Assembly (NCBI RefSeq): GCF_030296055.1
Contig: NZ_AP027370.1
Span: forward strand, 372,001 to 436,000
Origin: Hydrogenimonas cancrithermarum
GTDB taxonomy: Bacteria; Campylobacterota; Campylobacteria; Campylobacterales; Hydrogenimonadaceae
Direction: 5' to 3'
Length of the DNA: 64,000 bases
The notes under the pieces: generated by a model
The model's database searches: none
What the model was told of the DNA's origin: nothing
The model's input: the letters and a program-made list of their open reading frames with translations, nothing else
Shown: piece by piece, positions 41,839 through 50,111 of the stretch
Numbering within the stretch: the stretch's first letter is position 1
How the letters are laid out: each line of letters begins with the position of its first letter
Position numbers and translations under genes: made by a program

Positions 41839-43788
41839 TCACTTGGCGCCGCCACCCTTTTCAATCTCTTCCAGGGGCTTCGGCTCGTCGATATAATATC
41901 CCTGGATAATGTCGACACCAAGACGCTCCACCGTCTCGTAGATCATCTCGTTGCTGATGAACTCGGCCACGGTTTTGACCCCGAGTTTTTTCGCGAACAA
42001 GACGATCGTTTCGACGACGACCTGTATATTCTTGTCGGTATGAATATTTTTGATGAGCGAACCGTCGATCTTGATATAGTCCACTTTCAGTTTTACCAGA
42101 TAGGCGAAATTGGAGTATCCCGTACCGAAATCGTCGATGGCGATTTGACACCCCATCTCTTTCATCGCCTCTACAAACGTCTCAACTTCGGGATAAAGCT
42201 CGATATTTTCACTCTCCAGAAGTTCGAAAACGATGCGGTTGGTTACATGATAGTGTTCGATTCTCTCTTTGATAAACGCCACCGTCTCTTCGTTCAGGAT
42301 ATCTTCGACGGAGAGGTTGATCGAAAAAGTCACATCCTTTTTATCGGCGAAGAAGGCGCAACTCTCTTCGACGATCCGCCGCGTCATCGCCGGGTAGTGA
42401 TGGGTCTTTTGCGCAAGTGAAAGAAAAAACGAAGGCGGAACGACCGTGCCGTCCTCCGTGACGAGGCGCATCAACATCTCATACCCTTTGATCCTCTTTT
42501 TTCCGAGATCGTAGAGCGGCTGCGCATAGGGGTGGATACGCCCCTCGGCCAATGCTCTTTTAATCTCGCTCACCCAGTGGATATTCTCGCGGAAATTCTT
42601 CTCCATATTCCACTCCGAAGAGAAGATCATCAACGGTTTCCGCGCTTTTTTCGCCATTTTGTAGGCCATGTCCGCCTGTACGATCGTGGGAGGAAACTCT
42701 ATCGTCGCCCCGATCGTGACGCGCAGGTCGATCAGTGTATCTTCGTAGAAGTATCTCTCCATTTCGATCGAATCCCTGACCTCTTTGATGAACTGCATCG
42801 CATCGCCGGCCGTGAACGCCTCTTTTTTAAGGACGACATACTCATCCGCCGATGTACGATAGACTTTGTCGAAATCCAGCTTCTCCAATTTCCGGGCGAA
42901 CTGTTTCAAAACCTGGTCCCCCGCATCGTTACCGTAAAGATCGTTGATCTCCGTGAAATCGTCAATATTCACGATCGCCAGCAGTGCGGTATCGACCTGC
43001 AAAAGATCGTCCATCAGCGCCTTGCGGTTGGGAAGATCCGTCAGTGCATCGGTATAGAGCTGTTTCCAGAGCTCCGCCGTTTTCTCCTCGACTTTTTCAT
43101 AGAGGATCTGGTTCATATTCCTCTGAAGATCCGTATAGGCACGGATATTCTTCTGCATCTTTTCGATCGCTTTTTCGATCTGCCTTATCTCACGTTCCCG
43201 GCTCTTCTCCCTAAAGACAACCGGATGTTTCACGTCGTAATTCGCCAGCGACGTGGCAAGCTTTTTAAGCGGTTTGAGACGTTTTCTGATCAGATAGACG
43301 AGCCCGAAATACATAAGCGCGAGCAGGGAGAGAAAAAGAAGAAGCATGCGGGTCAGTTCACGGGACATCTGCTGATAATGGAGGCTCGAATAGTAGAGTT
43401 CGAGCATCGCCATTCTCTCTTTGCCGTCCGGAGCGAAAACGGGGACCTCGACACGGAAAATCTCTCCGCTGGCATTCTCCTCTTCCGTTTTCACCGAATG
43501 GATCACTTTTCCGTTTCGTTTGAGAAAAACCGAGACGATATCTTTTTGCGTCATGATCTGATTCAGCGTCTCTTCGAGCCTGTCCTCCATTCCGAGATAA
43601 AGGTTCAAGCCGATCTGAGGGGCGAACATCTTCGCGATCAGCTCCGCTTTCTCTTTCTCGATGTCGAACAGAATCTTTTTACCGATATTTCCAAGGACAA
43701 AAAAGATGGAAAGGAGGGCGATGATGCCTCCGACCACGACATAGAGTGTGAGTGTCGATGTCAGCGATCTGTCAATTCGTTTGAACAT
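41839..43788 (-). CDS. YfiN-like membrane protein: degenerate GGDEF plus EAL
   Basis: This 649-residue protein has a membrane helix at about 10-35 and a periplasmic region of about 105 residues that looks like CHASE8 (EDRLEETLNQIMTQKDIVSV). A second helix (about 140-165) and HAMP follow. The GGDEF domain's signature is TSADEY instead of GGDEF, with no RxxD inhibitory site, so it is probably not a cyclase. The EAL domain keeps its catalytic set: E in GYEMLMRL, N in FSINLSV, FELLESE, IDDFGTGYS, the K of YIKIDG and VAEF. A c-di-GMP phosphodiesterase is the likely output. It starts inside the YfiR-like gene with AAGG upstream. Confidence 0.88.
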   Translation of the reverse strand: MFKRIDRSLTSTLTLYVVVGGIIALLSIFFVLGNIGKKILFDIEKEKAELIAKMFAPQIGLNLYLGMEDRLEETLNQIMTQKDIVSVFLKRNGKVIHSVKTEEENASGEIFRVEVPVFAPDGKERMAMLELYYSSLHYQQMSRELTRMLLLFLSLLALMYFGLVYLIRKRLKPLKKLATSLANYDVKHPVVFREKSREREIRQIEKAIEKMQKNIRAYTDLQRNMNQILYEKVEEKTAELWKQLYTDALTDLPNRKALMDDLLQVDTALLAIVNIDDFTEINDLYGNDAGDQVLKQFARKLEKLDFDKVYRTSADEYVVLKKEAFTAGDAMQFIKEVRDSIEMERYFYEDTLIDLRVTIGATIEFPPTIVQADMAYKMAKKARKPLMIFSSEWNMEKNFRENIHWVSEIKRALAEGRIHPYAQPLYDLGKKRIKGYEMLMRLVTEDGTVVPPSFFLSLAQKTHHYPAMTRRIVEESCAFFADKKDVTFSINLSVEDILNEETVAFIKERIEHYHVTNRIVFELLESENIELYPEVETFVEAMKEMGCQIAIDDFGTGYSNFAYLVKLKVDYIKIDGSLIKNIHTDKNIQVVVETIVLFAKKLGVKTVAEFISNEMIYETVERLGVDIIQGYYIDEPKPLEEIEKGGGAK

Positions 43789-44320
43789 CCATGAACCTTG
43801 CAATACTGTAGAGTGTCGAACTGAATCTCGGCCCTTTTTTCAGTGCGTCGCGATTGAGATAGATGACGGTGGAACGCTCGATCGTCAGGGCCAGAAGCGC
43901 CCCCGATTCCAAGTCGTTGAAATCATAGACAAAAACGGGGATTTTTTTCGAACTCCCTATCTCGACCGCATGTTTGAGTGATGTATCGTCCGCTTTCAGG
44001 AGATAGAGCGCATCGGTTCTATCCAGACGATCCAACGCTTCGTAAGAGGCCATTCTCACGACAAAACGGTACTCACCGATTCTGTGGTCGTGATAATGCT
44101 CTATCTTCCGAACGATTTTACGTGCCACAGCTTCATCTTCAGGCATATAGACGATGGTCAGAACCAAAGGCTTCTCTTTCTCTTTATTGTGAAGAAGCCC
44201 TTCTTGCAACATCAGAAGTTTTGGATAGATCCTGCTTTGGGCATCGATCAATAGGTCGTTGTAATCGTATCCCCACAGCGTCTGGATGAGAAGCAGGATA
44301 AACATAGAACGCCGCATCAA
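43772..44320 (-). CDS. YfiR-like periplasmic regulator (DUF4154)
   Basis: This 182-residue protein has a short signal peptide (residues 1-17). The body fits YfiR/DUF4154: alternating strands (LVLTIVYMPEDEAVARKIV, YRFVVRMAS, ALYLLKA) and the family ending VIYLNRDALKKGPRFSSTL, which corresponds to the N-x-x-A-x4-L-x-hydrophobic-S-S stretch of YfiR. In Pseudomonas, YfiR binds the periplasmic domain of the cyclase YfiN and represses it. Here the next gene encodes a YfiN-like protein, so the same contact is likely. It overlaps the receptor gene by four bases. Confidence 0.7.
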   Translation of the reverse strand: MMRRSMFILLLIQTLWGYDYNDLLIDAQSRIYPKLLMLQEGLLHNKEKEKPLVLTIVYMPEDEAVARKIVRKIEHYHDHRIGEYRFVVRMASYEALDRLDRTDALYLLKADDTSLKHAVEIGSSKKIPVFVYDFNDLESGALLALTIERSTVIYLNRDALKKGPRFSSTLYSIARFMDVQTN

Positions 44321-46338
44321 AAGCCCTTCGTCAAAGTGACAATGATTTTGCGACCTTCTTGAATAAAATCTTCATCGTAATTATAGGGAGGGGAAGGATA
44401 CTTCACGGTCGCATCGAAAAGATTCTTCACAGACAACCGGAGTGTGAGATCGTTGGCATGAGCGTACCCGAATGTCATGTCGAGCGTCGCATAGGAATCA
44501 AGCTTCTCTCTGTAGTCGTACGTCGTGCGCTCCTTGCTGCCCACATATTTTCCAATCAGCGAAAAGTCGAAGGATTTATCGAACTGATGGATGTAATACC
44601 CTTTTGCCATATGCCTGGCACTATCGGACAGTGGATGGGATCCATTCTCTTTACCGTAAACGTAGGAGTAGTTGGCGTAAAGCGTATCGTGGAGTCCCAA
44701 CGGTGCTCTGAACTCGAATTCGAACCCGTAAATATTGGTTTCGGAGCTGTTTAGATATATGTTGTCGTCATTGACATTGTCGATTTGATCACTGTTTTGC
44801 AGATAGAAAAGATTCAGTTGCAAAAAAGCGTCGACGCTGAATTTATGGATATAGGCGAGTTCGAAGGCGTTCACCACTTCCGGGTCGAGGTCGGGGTTTC
44901 CGATGCGGGCATGGTTGTTGATGGTGAAAAGTTCCTGCCAGGAAGGGGAGCGGCTCGAACGGCTGTAGATCGCTTTGTAGATATTTTTTCCATCCTGCTG
45001 ATAGACAGCTGAAACCCGGGGATTGATCTCTGTCGAGATATCGGAAACTTTTTCGATGTTCAGACCGATCTGAAAAGACAAGGCATCGTCGTACTGGATC
45101 CTGTCCTGAAAGAAGAGGCGATAGGTATGCTGGCTCGAATTTGGTTCGATAAATGGTCGCGATTCCGAATAGTCGACAATCCCCGTTCCCGTCGATCTGT
45201 CTGTCGTTTTCGTGACGACTTTGTAGATCTCCGAATAATCGACATAGTACCCCATATTCAACCGGTGCCCCTCCAGCCCATCATATTCGGCATAAGCGGT
45301 TTGATAGAATTTTCTTATTTTCGCGACATGCTCTCCATAGAAACCGTTCTCGTATTCTATGCCGCCGGCGACGAAACCGGGAGGAATCAGTCTCGAAGAA
45401 CTTTTGAATGCACTATCTTTCCAACCTGCTTTGACAAAAGCCCGCCACTCGTCCCAAAAGGGGTGATAGGAGATTTCGGCATAAGACAGAGGGAATTTGG
45501 CATGGTCATCTTTCGGCGGAAGCGCACCGTTGATCCCATAGGCACTGCCGCGCTCGTTGTAAAGCGTTCGGGCACGCAGTGTCACATCTTCGTAGTCGAG
45601 CTGTATGCCCAGTGAATAGTTTCTCATCCATAGTGGTGCCTCCCCGCGTTTGGAGAGTGCGGCATTGAGAGGGTCATGGGAGAGTGCATCGGGGCCTGCG
45701 GGAAGCATTTTGTCATCTTTTTGATAATAAAAATCGGTAAATAGATTGAACGATTCGCCTTTGTACGCTTTTGTAAATCCACCCATCACGTAGCCATAAC
45801 CGCCGGCTTTCGCAACCACTCTGTCGGATGACGTTTCATCGTCGGTGGAATGCTCGGCATAGGTGATGACACGTATCGACCCGGCATAGGCGTTGTAACC
45901 GTCGCTGACGCTTCCCGGGCCGCGTGTCACTTCGATCCGCTTGATCATCTCGATCGGCATCGAAAGAAACGAACCGTAACTGTCGAAAAGTATATCGTTG
46001 ACTTCGACACCGTCGACGAAAAGTTTGCTCTGGCCATAGGCATAAGGGTTGGATCCTCTGAAAACCGCGCGCTTGTTGTCCAAGTTGTCGGTGGCCATGT
46101 CGACACCCGGAACCAACTCCAGCGCTTCCTGAAGATTTGAAACACCGATTTTTTCGAGATCTTTGCCTGAAAACACCGTCACGATATAGGGCTGATACGA
46201 CTCGTTCATTTTGACCGATTCGGCAAGCATCCCGACTCTCTTCATATCCTTTATGAGTTCCTGTGCCAAACCAGGAAGATCTTCGGAAGCCAAAAGCGGA
46301 AAACCCGCTAGAAGTACGGAAAGTATCACCCTTTTCAC
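44317..46338 (-). CDS. TonB-dependent outer-membrane receptor
   Basis: This 673-residue protein has a signal peptide (ending LLASEDL). A plug domain at about residues 45-165 includes LQEALELVPGVDM, FRGSNPYAYGQSKLFVDGVE and IKRIEVTRGPGSVSDGYNAY. A 22-strand-type barrel ends in the terminal aromatic motif VTLTKGF. I see no clear TonB box. The substrate is unknown; nothing nearby suggests siderophore uptake. Its place between an acyl-signal-type synthase and a YfiR-like protein hints at sensing rather than only nutrition. It overlaps both neighbours by four bases. Confidence 0.9.
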   Translation of the reverse strand: MKRVILSVLLAGFPLLASEDLPGLAQELIKDMKRVGMLAESVKMNESYQPYIVTVFSGKDLEKIGVSNLQEALELVPGVDMATDNLDNKRAVFRGSNPYAYGQSKLFVDGVEVNDILFDSYGSFLSMPIEMIKRIEVTRGPGSVSDGYNAYAGSIRVITYAEHSTDDETSSDRVVAKAGGYGYVMGGFTKAYKGESFNLFTDFYYQKDDKMLPAGPDALSHDPLNAALSKRGEAPLWMRNYSLGIQLDYEDVTLRARTLYNERGSAYGINGALPPKDDHAKFPLSYAEISYHPFWDEWRAFVKAGWKDSAFKSSSRLIPPGFVAGGIEYENGFYGEHVAKIRKFYQTAYAEYDGLEGHRLNMGYYVDYSEIYKVVTKTTDRSTGTGIVDYSESRPFIEPNSSQHTYRLFFQDRIQYDDALSFQIGLNIEKVSDISTEINPRVSAVYQQDGKNIYKAIYSRSSRSPSWQELFTINNHARIGNPDLDPEVVNAFELAYIHKFSVDAFLQLNLFYLQNSDQIDNVNDDNIYLNSSETNIYGFEFEFRAPLGLHDTLYANYSYVYGKENGSHPLSDSARHMAKGYYIHQFDKSFDFSLIGKYVGSKERTTYDYREKLDSYATLDMTFGYAHANDLTLRLSVKNLFDATVKYPSPPYNYDEDFIQEGRKIIVTLTKGF

Positions 46339-46916
46339 AATGTTGCCATCCCTTCACAAAGATCTCTGTTCGCTTCTCTCAACTGATCGGTCGACAGGAG
46401 TACGGGAAAGCGTTCTTTGCCGGCATAAAAAGCACTTTCCCCGATTATTTCATAGGGGAATCTATAGCGCTGCAGAAGGCGATAGAAGCGATCCTCCAAC
46501 GACCCCATCGTATATTTCAGCCCAAGCTCCTTCATTTTATGACATAACATGATTTTAAACCTGGTAAAAATTTCCCTGCTCGCTTTCAAATTTCGACAAT
46601 CGGGGCGAATGAATATACGTGAAATCTCTCCGAGATTCTGCGGATCGAGATCGAACGGGCTCAAATCGACATCCAGTGCATTCTGTGTAGGGTATCCGAC
46701 GGGAGAGTGGTGGATAAGCCGAACGCACGAAGCAACCGCTCCTTTTTCGTCGAATGCAGCGAAATGGACGGCATAGGGGTCATATTCATCATTTTCGATC
46801 CCTTCAGGATAATCGTCCTTTTTATAGACGTTCAACTCTTCGCACGCGATGAAATATCTGAAACGGTATATTTTTTCCAAAAGTTTTTCATCGTGTACTT
46901 CAACAAACTGAAACAT
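46335..46916 (-). CDS. LuxI/N-acyl amino acid synthase-like acyltransferase
   Basis: This 193-residue protein has the LuxI-type fold signature. It has Arg18/Arg20 with Phe22 in the first helix, then YPEGIENDEYDPYAVHFAAF with Asp43 and Asp46, Arg66 in CVRLI, and Glu97 with Arg100 in GEISRIFIRP. Their spacing matches the conserved D, D, R, E, R of LuxI/EsaI enzymes. The wording is closest to the PEP-CTERM/exosortase-associated acyltransferases and N-acyl amino acid synthases. It probably joins an acyl chain from acyl-ACP to an amino compound; the product is unknown. It is the first gene of the receptor-YfiR-EAL unit, overlapping the receptor by ATGA. Confidence 0.75.
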   Translation of the reverse strand: MFQFVEVHDEKLLEKIYRFRYFIACEELNVYKKDDYPEGIENDEYDPYAVHFAAFDEKGAVASCVRLIHHSPVGYPTQNALDVDLSPFDLDPQNLGEISRIFIRPDCRNLKASREIFTRFKIMLCHKMKELGLKYTMGSLEDRFYRLLQRYRFPYEIIGESAFYAGKERFPVLLSTDQLREANRDLCEGMATL

Positions 46917-47006
46917 TCTCCCCTCTTCCGATTTATTTGATTTATTATCCCAAAAAACAGCTTAGTTTCGTTCATTTAAATCGACAAATAAACAATATTT
47001 TTTAAC
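46917..47006. promoter_or_regulatory. AT-rich spacer before the acyltransferase unit
   Basis: This 90-base, AT-rich gap separates the end of the RND gene from the start of the acyltransferase on the same strand. It is the largest spacer in this stretch, so a promoter is likely here. On the minus strand GGGATAATAA is the best -10 guess and GGAAGAGGGGAG supplies a ribosome site. I see no hairpin with a T tract. Confidence 0.35.
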
Positions 47007-50000
47007 TTATGTGGACTTGACTCGATAAAGTATGGAAAACATGACCGGAACATAATAGAGATTCAGTATCGTCGCCCAGATCAGGCCGAAACCGAGCGTC
47101 ACCGCCATCGGCTGAAGAATCAAGGCCTGGCCGGAAGCGAAAAACATCAGCGATGAAAGGCCCAGAACCGTCGTCAACGACGTTAGAAGAATCGGACGAA
47201 GCCGAAGTTTTGCACGCTCCAGAAGTTCATCGAGATTTCGCGTATGTTTGATGAAATCGATCATGATCAACCCATCGTTGACGACAACGCCTGAAAGCCC
47301 CACGATTCCGATGAGACTCGGCATCGTCAGGTTGATTCCCATCACCATATGCCCGACCAGTACCCCGAGAATGGAGAGCGGAATGGTCGAAAGGGTAATG
47401 AGTGGCAGTGTCACCGAATCGAACATCCAGACCAGTGCTACGAAAATCAGGAAAATCGCGATGATCGCCGACTGGATGATCTCCCGCTTGACGGTTCTGT
47501 TCTCTTTCTCTTCGCCTTTGATATCGACGGATATCCCCTCTTTTTCGAGCGCTCCAAAAACCGGCGCGAGCCGATCCATCACTTCGCCTGAAGTGATCAA
47601 CTTTTTGTTCAAAGAGGCGTAAACCGTACTGACGCGTCTGCCGTCGACCTTGAAAATTTTCGCGAAACTCTTTCTGCGTTCGATCTCGACGATATCGGCC
47701 AGTTTCACCCACACCGGTTTCCCGGGAACCTGAAGTTCGAACCGTTCGAACCGCTCCAGACTCTCTTTGTCGATATCCTGCAACCTTATACGCACAAGCC
47801 CCTCGTCGTTGAACATCTTGCCGTACTCCCCTTCGAGGAAAAAGGGCTGCAGCGCCTGTGTCAGCGCCCCTTCCGTGAACCCGAGCCGCTGGCCGTAACG
47901 GTTGATGCGCAATTTCAGCTCGTCTTCCCCCGGCTTGGCGTCATCGGTGATATTTTCGACCCCTTCGATCTTTGCAAGTGCGGCTTCGACCTCTTTTAGT
48001 GCATTCGTCACCTTCTCTTGCGGACCGCCCAACGAGAGCTCGATATCGCTCTTGACGATTCCCGCCTGCGGAACGATGACATTGAGCTCTTTGAAAAGCG
48101 GCCCGTAGGCATCGCGTTTCCTCCTCAACGGTTCGACAAGTTTCTGGATCTGTGCCGCCACCTCCTGCGCCGAGCGGCGACGCATCATGTCACTGTCGTC
48201 ATACTCCGGACTCAAATAGGGATTGAGATATTTGTCGAAGAAGTTTTGTGGAACCGGTTCGTGGAGATTGACGAAAACATGAAAGAGGTTGTCGGCGTGT
48301 TCGCCTTTGTTGTTGCTGTCGAGCTTGAGACCTATCACCGCCGTGATCGACGAGACATCCTCTTTGGAAAGGTTCTCGAACAGTACCTTTTCGAGCCGGG
48401 AAACAATCTTTTCGTTGTCTTCCAGGTCATTGTTGATATCGACTTCACCGTTGACATAGATCTGCGTCGTATCGAACTCCGGAAAGAGCTGAAAACGGCT
48501 CTGTTTCGCCAATATCCACGTCGCGAACACGATTGCACCGACCATCAGGGGGAGCGTAACATATTTGTGACGGATCAGCGGCCGGAGGATGGTTCGGTAA
48601 ATTCGGTAGTTATTCTCCCAGAAGCGCTGCGTAAACCCCATCTCTTTGGTAGGTTTGAGCATATCTTTCGCATGCAGAGGAAGAAAATAGAACGCCTCGA
48701 AAAGCGAACTGAGCAGCAGAATCGTGATCATCACCGGCAGTACCTTGATGAACTCCCCCAGTTTGCCACTGAGCATCAGAAGCGGCAGGAAAGCGAAGAC
48801 CGTCGTCATCGTCGCCGTCAATACGGCCGGAAACATCTCCACCGATCCTTTGATCGCAGCCTTTTTAGGCTCCATTCCCTCCTCGATATAGCGGTAGATG
48901 TTCTCCGCCACGACGATCGCTTCGTCCACCAGCATCCCCAGCGCGATCAACGCGCCGAGCAACGTCAGCATATTGAGGCTGTACCCCAGAATCTCCGAGG
49001 CCACGAGCCCGATCATGAAACTGACCGGAATACCGATCGCCACGACGAGTGCGATACGGGCATTGACGAAGAGCAGCATCGACAGAAAGACGAGCCCCAG
49101 CCCGAAGATGATGTTCGAAACGACGGTATTGAGACGGTTTTTGATCCAAACCGAGGTATCGGTATAGACATCGAACGTAAATTCGGGATACCTCTCCTCG
49201 TACGCTCGCAGAAGCCGTCGTATCTCTTTGGAGAGGGCGATCGCATTCCCCTCTTCCGATTTACTTACCGAAATGGAGACATTCTTGATCCCGTTGAAGT
49301 GAGAAATCTCCGTCGGCTCACTCAGCTGAAATTTCACCTCGGCGATATCTTTGAGTAAGATCGTTTTCCCGTCGATATGCAGCAATGTCTCTTCGAGTGC
49401 TTTGGCCTCTTTCTCCCCGTTGATCGTGCTGATAAAGAGATGGTTACCCCGCTGTTTGACGGCACCGATCGGAAAGATCGAAGCGATCTGCGAAAGTGTA
49501 TTGACGACAGAACGCTTCGACAGGCCCAGCGCATCCACCTTTTCACTGTCGATAAAGATGTCGAGCTCGTCGTCGGCATCGCCGTAGATGACGATATCGC
49601 TCAGATCTTTGAAATTGGACAAATCGCTCTTGATCGCATCGGCGACTCTAAGAAGCTCTTTTTTCGGCTTTTGTGCCGCCACGGCGATGATGACGAGCGG
49701 AAAGTTCCGCTTGGCGATCTTCGCGATCGGCTCATCCATATCGGAAGGGAGGTCGCGCCGGATATTGGAGAGGATATCTTTGGCATCGTTTAGCGTCAGG
49801 TCGGGATCGTTCCCGGGCTTGATGTCGGCACCGATCGAAAAAGAGCCGTTTTTTATAACCGACTCGATCGTATCGATTTCACTCAGGTTTTTCAGGCCGT
49901 CTTCGATCGTGTGGACCGCCATCTTGTCCAGTAGGTCGGCGCTCGCCCCCGTATAGTGTCCCGTGATCGTCACCCGGTCGAGATTGCCCGGCGGAAAGAT

Positions 50001-50111
50001 CTCTTTGGGAATGTTGATGTAGGCGAAAATGGAGAGGACAAAGAGAAAGATCAGGAAAATGTGGTTGAGAATCGGCTTTTCGATCGCGAATCGTATAAAT
50101 TTTTCAATCAT
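47007..50111 (-). CDS. RND-family inner-membrane transporter
   Basis: This 1034-residue protein has the AcrB/MexF layout: one N-terminal helix, a large periplasmic loop, a bundle of helices (with LGALIALGMLVDEAIVVAEN carrying the Asp of the proton relay), a second loop and a second bundle ending near residue 1030. Early sequence (FPPGNLDRVTITGHYTGASA) is typical. No membrane-fusion protein or outer-membrane channel gene is adjacent. The substrate is unknown. It follows the FtsL-like gene. Confidence 0.92.
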   Translation of the reverse strand: MIEKFIRFAIEKPILNHIFLIFLFVLSIFAYINIPKEIFPPGNLDRVTITGHYTGASADLLDKMAVHTIEDGLKNLSEIDTIESVIKNGSFSIGADIKPGNDPDLTLNDAKDILSNIRRDLPSDMDEPIAKIAKRNFPLVIIAVAAQKPKKELLRVADAIKSDLSNFKDLSDIVIYGDADDELDIFIDSEKVDALGLSKRSVVNTLSQIASIFPIGAVKQRGNHLFISTINGEKEAKALEETLLHIDGKTILLKDIAEVKFQLSEPTEISHFNGIKNVSISVSKSEEGNAIALSKEIRRLLRAYEERYPEFTFDVYTDTSVWIKNRLNTVVSNIIFGLGLVFLSMLLFVNARIALVVAIGIPVSFMIGLVASEILGYSLNMLTLLGALIALGMLVDEAIVVAENIYRYIEEGMEPKKAAIKGSVEMFPAVLTATMTTVFAFLPLLMLSGKLGEFIKVLPVMITILLLSSLFEAFYFLPLHAKDMLKPTKEMGFTQRFWENNYRIYRTILRPLIRHKYVTLPLMVGAIVFATWILAKQSRFQLFPEFDTTQIYVNGEVDINNDLEDNEKIVSRLEKVLFENLSKEDVSSITAVIGLKLDSNNKGEHADNLFHVFVNLHEPVPQNFFDKYLNPYLSPEYDDSDMMRRRSAQEVAAQIQKLVEPLRRKRDAYGPLFKELNVIVPQAGIVKSDIELSLGGPQEKVTNALKEVEAALAKIEGVENITDDAKPGEDELKLRINRYGQRLGFTEGALTQALQPFFLEGEYGKMFNDEGLVRIRLQDIDKESLERFERFELQVPGKPVWVKLADIVEIERRKSFAKIFKVDGRRVSTVYASLNKKLITSGEVMDRLAPVFGALEKEGISVDIKGEEKENRTVKREIIQSAIIAIFLIFVALVWMFDSVTLPLITLSTIPLSILGVLVGHMVMGINLTMPSLIGIVGLSGVVVNDGLIMIDFIKHTRNLDELLERAKLRLRPILLTSLTTVLGLSSLMFFASGQALILQPMAVTLGFGLIWATILNLYYVPVMFSILYRVKST

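Follow-up and report, generated by a model that had tools for sequence, protein, structure and literature searches.

A self-made acyl signal leads to the breakdown of cyclic di-GMP (c-di-GMP) in the RpfF/RpfC/RpfG system of the diffusible signal factor (DSF), which uses a crotonase-type synthase, a histidine kinase sensor and an HD-GYP enzyme. In Vibrio parahaemolyticus, ScrA makes the S-signal, and the periplasmic protein ScrB binds this signal and switches ScrC to phosphodiesterase activity (PMC11315295). N-acyl amino acid synthases (NAS) are widespread. The physiological role of their products is unclear, and two of these enzymes, Nas343 and Nas354, are fused to a PilZ-like c-di-GMP domain (PMC4897644). 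Here we analysed a stretch of 64,000 nucleotides from Hydrogenimonas cancrithermarum (positions 372,001 to 436,000 of contig NZ_AP027370.1; below, the window). It contains a four-gene unit encoding, in the order of reading, a NAS-type acyltransferase, a TonB-dependent outer-membrane receptor (TBDT), a periplasmic protein with the YfiR fold and a membrane GGDEF-EAL protein (genes 1 to 4, Table 1). The comparison of genomes shows a real, evolutionarily conserved unit. We estimate the probability at about one half that it forms a self-contained circuit of synthase, receptor and relay, through which an acyl product made by the cell itself would control a c-di-GMP phosphodiesterase.

All four genes lie on the minus strand, at 46916-41839, and consecutive genes overlap by 4, 4 and 17 bases. 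This arrangement had been described in an initial annotation of the window, and the same open reading frames (ORFs) and overlaps were recovered here. The 17-base overlap assumes the ATG start of the last gene at 43788; a longer ORF with a TTG start begins at 43803.

Campylobacterota were surveyed in two ways, in a sample of 298 genomes of the class and by searching GTDB contigs separately with an acyltransferase profile. The samples overlap, as L095 and L053, L106 and L058, and L111 and L060 are loci of the same genomes. ORF starts in the relatives were set mechanically, and loci from metagenome-assembled genomes may carry assembly errors. Of the class sample, 20 genomes carry the acyltransferase, one of them as a piece of 38 residues, and 30 carry the YfiR-like protein. 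The complete order NAS-TBDT-YfiR-EAL is present in the window and in 13 or 14 other genomes of this sample, from at least three families; at one locus, L073, the EAL gene is divergent from the rest of the cassette. The GTDB contigs contain 33 NAS loci, in Hydrogenimonas, Sulfurimonas, Nitratiruptor, Arcobacteraceae and other Campylobacterales. The TBDT gene is directly downstream of NAS in 31 of the 32 loci not cut by a contig end, and nearly all loci on sufficiently long contigs hold all four genes. Thus the conserved neighbourhood in related genomes that the initial annotation had named as a test of its proposal does exist. The outer flanks of the unit are formed by 13 unrelated families upstream and 16 downstream. 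Since the arrangement recurs across the phylum with unrelated flanks, it is not due to chance, and the diversity of these flanks indicates that the unit moves or persists as a whole, beyond inherited chromosome order.

In the receptor and YfiR trees the NAS-type cassettes form one clade (support 100/99). In the class sample, a cassette of this clade is found in 17 of the 19 genomes with NAS and in 3 of the 279 others; these counts ignore phylogeny. Other TBDT-YfiR cassettes of the class fall outside the clade, have no NAS, and stand next to histidine kinases, cyclases or GGDEF-EAL proteins (Table 1). This pattern would fit a modular sensor front end at the outer membrane that is joined to kinases, cyclases or phosphodiesterases. 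The placement of L065 and L073 in the trees is unsure because their branches are long. The most telling cases are two Arcobacteraceae-related genomes, G292 and G298, where a methyltransferase gene and NAS are on one contig and TBDT-YfiR-EAL on another. At L123, from a close relative, the methyltransferase, NAS, TBDT, YfiR and EAL genes stand in a row, and both the NAS tree and the TBDT tree group the three genomes. The likely explanation is co-retention after loss of linkage, which is better evidence of shared function than adjacency, although two cases are few. The link between synthase and receptor is strengthened by the clade-specific co-inheritance and by the fact that these two genomes retain both genes despite their separation.

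The product of gene 1 scores above the Pfam cut-offs for FeeM (30.0 bits, cut-off 27) and Acetyltransf_5 (35.2 bits, cut-off 22.4). The NCBIfam model TIGR03694, named as a PEP-CTERM/exosortase-associated acyltransferase, is matched by 19 of 19 relatives, and the window protein scores under its cut-off (77.2 bits versus 112). The AlphaFold2 model (pLDDT 94.4) matches TofI (Z 19.3), LasI (Z 18.4) and FeeM (Z 17.8; chain 2g0b_D, root-mean-square deviation 2.6 Å over 166 residues). As the acyl-homoserine lactone (AHL) synthases TofI and LasI score only slightly higher, the fold does not discriminate between an AHL synthase and FeeM. Positions R20, E41, D43, D46, P76, E97, S99, R100 and R108 are invariant among 19 relatives, and R66 is nearly so. 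In the alignment with LasI, this conserved acidic/basic set is the same as that used by LuxI enzymes, and E97 is aligned with the ELSR motif. Both parts of the initial description, a LuxI-fold acyltransferase and a pattern of D43, D46, R66, E97 and R100, agree with these results: the protein belongs to the LuxI/FeeM acyltransferase group, and all five residues are present and invariant or nearly invariant.

PMC11072679, citing Craig et al. 2011, ties NAS enzymes to exosortase systems in other bacteria. For the unit considered here such a link was rejected, as exosortase is absent from 21 of the 24 genomes tested. The host genome has one match to the exosortase/archaeosortase family (PF09721, 38.8 bits), unlinked to the acyltransferases. 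It also encodes another acyltransferase of this family (44% identity) between recD2 and dapD; G074, a genome of the same genus, has one at the corresponding site but lacks the receptor cassette. At three Arcobacteraceae-type loci, a SAM-dependent methyltransferase gene (TIGR00027, leucine carboxyl methyltransferase-like) is directly upstream of NAS, which suggests a tailored small molecule, possibly a capped acyl product. In plasmid records, there was one weak match to the acyltransferase (Rhizobium, 27%) and none to the YfiR-like protein.

Gene 2 encodes a TBDT, as initially assigned: the TonB plug (PF07715, 65 bits) and 22-strand barrel (PF00593, 121 bits) models are both above the Pfam cut-offs. 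Neither an STN domain nor another extra N-terminal signalling domain was found in this protein. Among solved structures, CirA and BtuB are nearest in sequence, mostly via the plug. TonB genes are encoded elsewhere in the host genome (2.38 Mb).

The product of gene 3 itself has no significant match in Pfam or NCBIfam, and none to DUF4154 (PF13689). The best fold match of its AlphaFold2 model (mean pLDDT 92.4) is P. aeruginosa YfiR (4zhu_B, Z 15.2, 2.8 Å, 142 residues), and Foldseek matched the model to 4yn9_B (E 2.5e-6). Almost level with YfiR is a Rhodothermus substrate-binding protein (5z6v, Z 14.4), and ABC-type binding proteins are close behind. Among 31 aligned relatives, 10 match DUF4154/YfiR-HmsC in Pfam (best 7.5e-8); within the NAS clade such matches occur only at L063 and L073, both under the cut-off. 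A profile search of the PDB by sequence did not find YfiR, which was found by the fold search alone. Fold similarity of the model plus remote homology thus point to a YfiR-like protein, and the earlier label is right at the level of fold. The window protein contains no cysteine and therefore would not be subject to disulfide control as in Pseudomonas YfiR.

Gene 4 encodes a transmembrane (TM) segment, a periplasmic region, a second TM segment, a HAMP-like region, GGDEF and EAL. The EAL (212 bits) and GGDEF (54 bits) domains are both above the Pfam cut-offs. The EAL catalytic residues E437, N491, E522, D552, D553, K573, E609 and Q629 are invariant in 19 relatives; the metal- and substrate-binding positions were assigned by what we take to be the spacing in RocR. 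The GGDEF motif reads SADEY in the window and mostly SGDEF in the relatives, with GGDEF in a few. With its EAL active site intact, the protein is predicted to be a c-di-GMP phosphodiesterase, and the degeneration of GGDEF makes breakdown rather than synthesis of c-di-GMP the likely output. Some residual cyclase activity is conceivable in the relatives. The initial annotation had described this protein as YfiN-like with an EAL domain. The layout from the first TM segment to GGDEF and the EAL domain agree with this description. However, the periplasmic part taken alone matches YfiN weakly (E 0.0013, 17.6 bits, cut-off 325) and has no CHASE8 domain, and the case for membership in YfiN on the basis of this part is weak. 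At L055 and L096 the EAL gene is broken into two frames by a frameshift or a sequencing error.

The initial interpretation, an acyl product that the receptor binds or imports and that controls c-di-GMP breakdown, is partly supported by these results. The preferred interpretation is the following. The acyltransferase would join an acyl group from acyl-ACP (or acyl-CoA) to an amine, most likely an amino acid, giving an N-acyl product. This product would exit the cell and be bound, and perhaps imported, by the neighbouring TBDT. The occupied receptor would signal to the YfiR-fold protein, a candidate relay, which in turn would act on the periplasmic domain of the gene 4 product and alter its phosphodiesterase activity, so that an acyl product of the cell or its kin would control c-di-GMP breakdown. 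Judging from ScrABC and from the relief of inhibition by YfiR, the ligand would be expected to raise this activity. The fusion in Nas343 and Nas354 is an independent tie of NAS to c-di-GMP.

A number of observations weigh against this circuit. Cassettes without NAS occur in G129, G133 and G279, and NAS without the cassette occurs in G074 and as the second copy in the host genome. The sequence of the receptor gives no pointer to its ligand. No exporter is conserved with the unit in the neighbourhoods compared. Finally, the need for a TBDT is not evident for long-chain N-acyl amino acids, which are amphiphilic. Most of the NAS-less members are inside the NAS clade, G254 has a broken acyltransferase remnant directly upstream of an intact TBDT-YfiR-EAL cassette, and G129 is a sister of a NAS-bearing locus with short branches; hence loss of NAS is the simplest reading of these cases. 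Still, the existence of both NAS-less cassettes and cassette-less NAS genes keeps open the main rival explanation, which we consider doubtful: the receptor and the YfiR-like protein would sense an exogenous compound (a siderophore, cobamide or similar) and control c-di-GMP, the acyl product being an output and not the ligand. It could be a surfactant-like N-acyl amino acid or an aminolipid, made while the cell lowers c-di-GMP to move on surfaces or disperse. Indeed, N-acyltyrosines made by NAS are surface-active (PMC4897644). The similarity of the receptor to CirA and BtuB points in the same direction, and the front end can sense something else, since cassettes with histidine kinases or cyclases work without NAS. 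However, NAS is the first gene of the unit and is confined to one clade of receptors and YfiR-like proteins, which would be expected from joint evolution of the product and the specificity of the receptor, and an output gene would more often be expected elsewhere, under the c-di-GMP regulon.

The identity of the enzyme allows for two further explanations. If gene 1 encoded a true AHL synthase, the unit would represent AHL quorum sensing with a surface receptor in place of LuxR. The best structural matches and the conservation of the LuxI acidic/basic residues (ExDxYD, R66, E97, R100) fit this explanation. Nevertheless it is disfavoured, as the lead of these matches over FeeM is small and Autoind_synth (PF00765) scores under its cut-off (19.8 bits versus 24), whereas FeeM scores over. 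We take the LuxI signature to be R-x3-F-x2-[KRQ]-x2-W ... E-x-D-x-[FY]-D; its F and W positions were seen in no family member tested, and only ExDxYD is retained. Moreover, AHLs usually need no TonB receptor to pass through membranes. It is equally improbable that the enzyme acts on a cell component instead of producing a diffusible signal, either by making a precursor of a membrane lipid that contains an amino acid or by acylating a receptor substrate, with YfiR-EAL monitoring the envelope. YfiR-type systems do respond to envelope state, and some members of the family have weak similarity to the ornithine N-acyltransferases OlsB. However, the OlsB scores are far under the cut-offs, the significant matches do not include the window protein, and the unit has no conserved OlsA-like partner.

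The use of a TBDT as an outer-membrane sensor of a self-made N-acyl compound, in what would be the first acyl-signal circuit in Campylobacterota, is put forward tentatively. If it exists, cells of this type would sense themselves or their kin by a signal that is detected on the outer membrane and need not enter the cell, which would make it a class of its own. The unit would also offer a ligand for a TonB receptor that serves as a sensor, not for iron or vitamins. Campylobacterota, which are dominant at vents and sulfidic interfaces, would then tie decisions on biofilm and motility to a self-made signal. In the unit, a NAS has genetic ties to a candidate receptor and to a defined output, so the function of its product can be tested directly.

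A gene of an RND efflux pump is located directly upstream of the acyltransferase gene, in the same direction. Outside Hydrogenimonas and its closest relatives (L053, L054, L116) it does not adjoin the unit, and for this reason it was not counted in the unit; it is a possible lineage-specific exporter. The 90-base leader between the two genes contains a strong ribosome-binding site of the acyltransferase gene, GGAAGAGGGGAG. A scan of this leader found no consensus promoter, and scans for promoters and terminators gave sites no more numerous than in shuffled sequences.

Table 1. Location of the genes of the unit and of associated features in the window and at other loci
Feature	Location	Strand	Basis or remark
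Acyltransferase (NAS)	46335..46916	-	Pfam, NCBIfam, AlphaFold2 fold, conserved residues
TonB-dependent outer-membrane receptor (TBDT), 673 aa	44317..46338	-	Pfam plug and barrel
YfiR-fold periplasmic protein, about 180 aa, predicted signal peptide	43772..44320	-	AlphaFold2 fold, remote homology
Membrane GGDEF-EAL protein, 649 aa	41839..43788	-	Pfam EAL and GGDEF, catalytic residues
Leader, 90 bases, RND pump gene to acyltransferase	46917..47006	-	Sequence
RND efflux pump gene	47007-50111	-	
Second acyltransferase of the host genome, between recD2 and dapD	L085:7589-8179 (G000:C1:123588-124151)		
Acyltransferase of G074, between recD2 and dapD	L078:7638-8201		
Exosortase/archaeosortase-family match of the host genome	C1:1002197-1002589 (L090)		PF09721
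Acyltransferase remnant of G254	L059:5374-5586		
NAS-adjacent methyltransferase	L123:6178-7065; L079:6457-7344; L125:7105-7992		64-74% mutual identity
EAL gene broken into two frames	L055:8211-10160; L096:6988-8934		
TBDT-YfiR cassette without NAS, histidine kinase output	L075, L081, L082		
TBDT-YfiR cassette without NAS, cyclase output	L080, L083, L087, L088		
TBDT-YfiR cassette without NAS, GGDEF-EAL output	L074, L086		

ScrABC is the closest functional precedent: in both cases a synthase of a small molecule, predicted here, shares one operon with a relay in the periplasm, here a candidate, and with a GGDEF-EAL protein of the membrane. In ScrABC the relay with bound ligand switches this protein to a phosphodiesterase. 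However, ScrA is an aminotransferase and ScrB a solute-binding protein, whereas here the synthase is a GNAT-type acyltransferase and the candidate relay has the YfiR fold; ScrABC has no outer-membrane receptor, and shared ancestry of the synthases or relays is not claimed. The resemblance to the RpfF/RpfC/RpfG system is limited to the overall logic, and none of its components has a homologue here.

The YfiBNR (TpbB) system of P. aeruginosa likewise has a protein with the YfiR fold beside a membrane protein of the TM-periplasm-TM-HAMP-GGDEF type. Here, a TBDT is found in the place of YfiB, an acyltransferase is added, and the YfiR-like protein is cysteine-free. The output is an EAL protein with SADEY, in contrast to the diguanylate cyclase YfiN with CHASE8. 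None of the four genes encodes an OmpA-like lipoprotein YfiB, and the receptor fills the outer-membrane slot, in line with the initial proposal that it replaces YfiB.

The same receptor and YfiR front end is present in the triads named in NCBIfam (NF053590, NF053592 HK_near_YfiR_like), and so it is already recognised at the level of annotation. These triads have a kinase output and no acyltransferase, whereas here the output is a phosphodiesterase and an acyltransferase is present. The window receptor (P0002) matches NF053590 (TonB_dep_TOL0244) at 93 bits, far under the cut-off of 645, and NF053592 is weakly matched by one relative of the gene 4 product.

The acyltransferase resembles the N-acyl amino acid synthases (FeeM, NasY-type, TIGR03694, Nas343/Nas354) in fold, conserved residues and a score above the FeeM cut-off of Pfam. 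It differs from them in being linked to a receptor and an EAL protein, not to exosortase, and in scoring under the cut-off of TIGR03694. A literature search, thin on subscription journals, yielded no paper that joins YfiR, TonB-dependent receptors and GGDEF/EAL proteins, or adds NAS to them. Compared with the described systems, the unit looks like an operon of the synthase-relay-c-di-GMP-enzyme type in which both the synthase and the relay are new and a receptor of the outer membrane is added.

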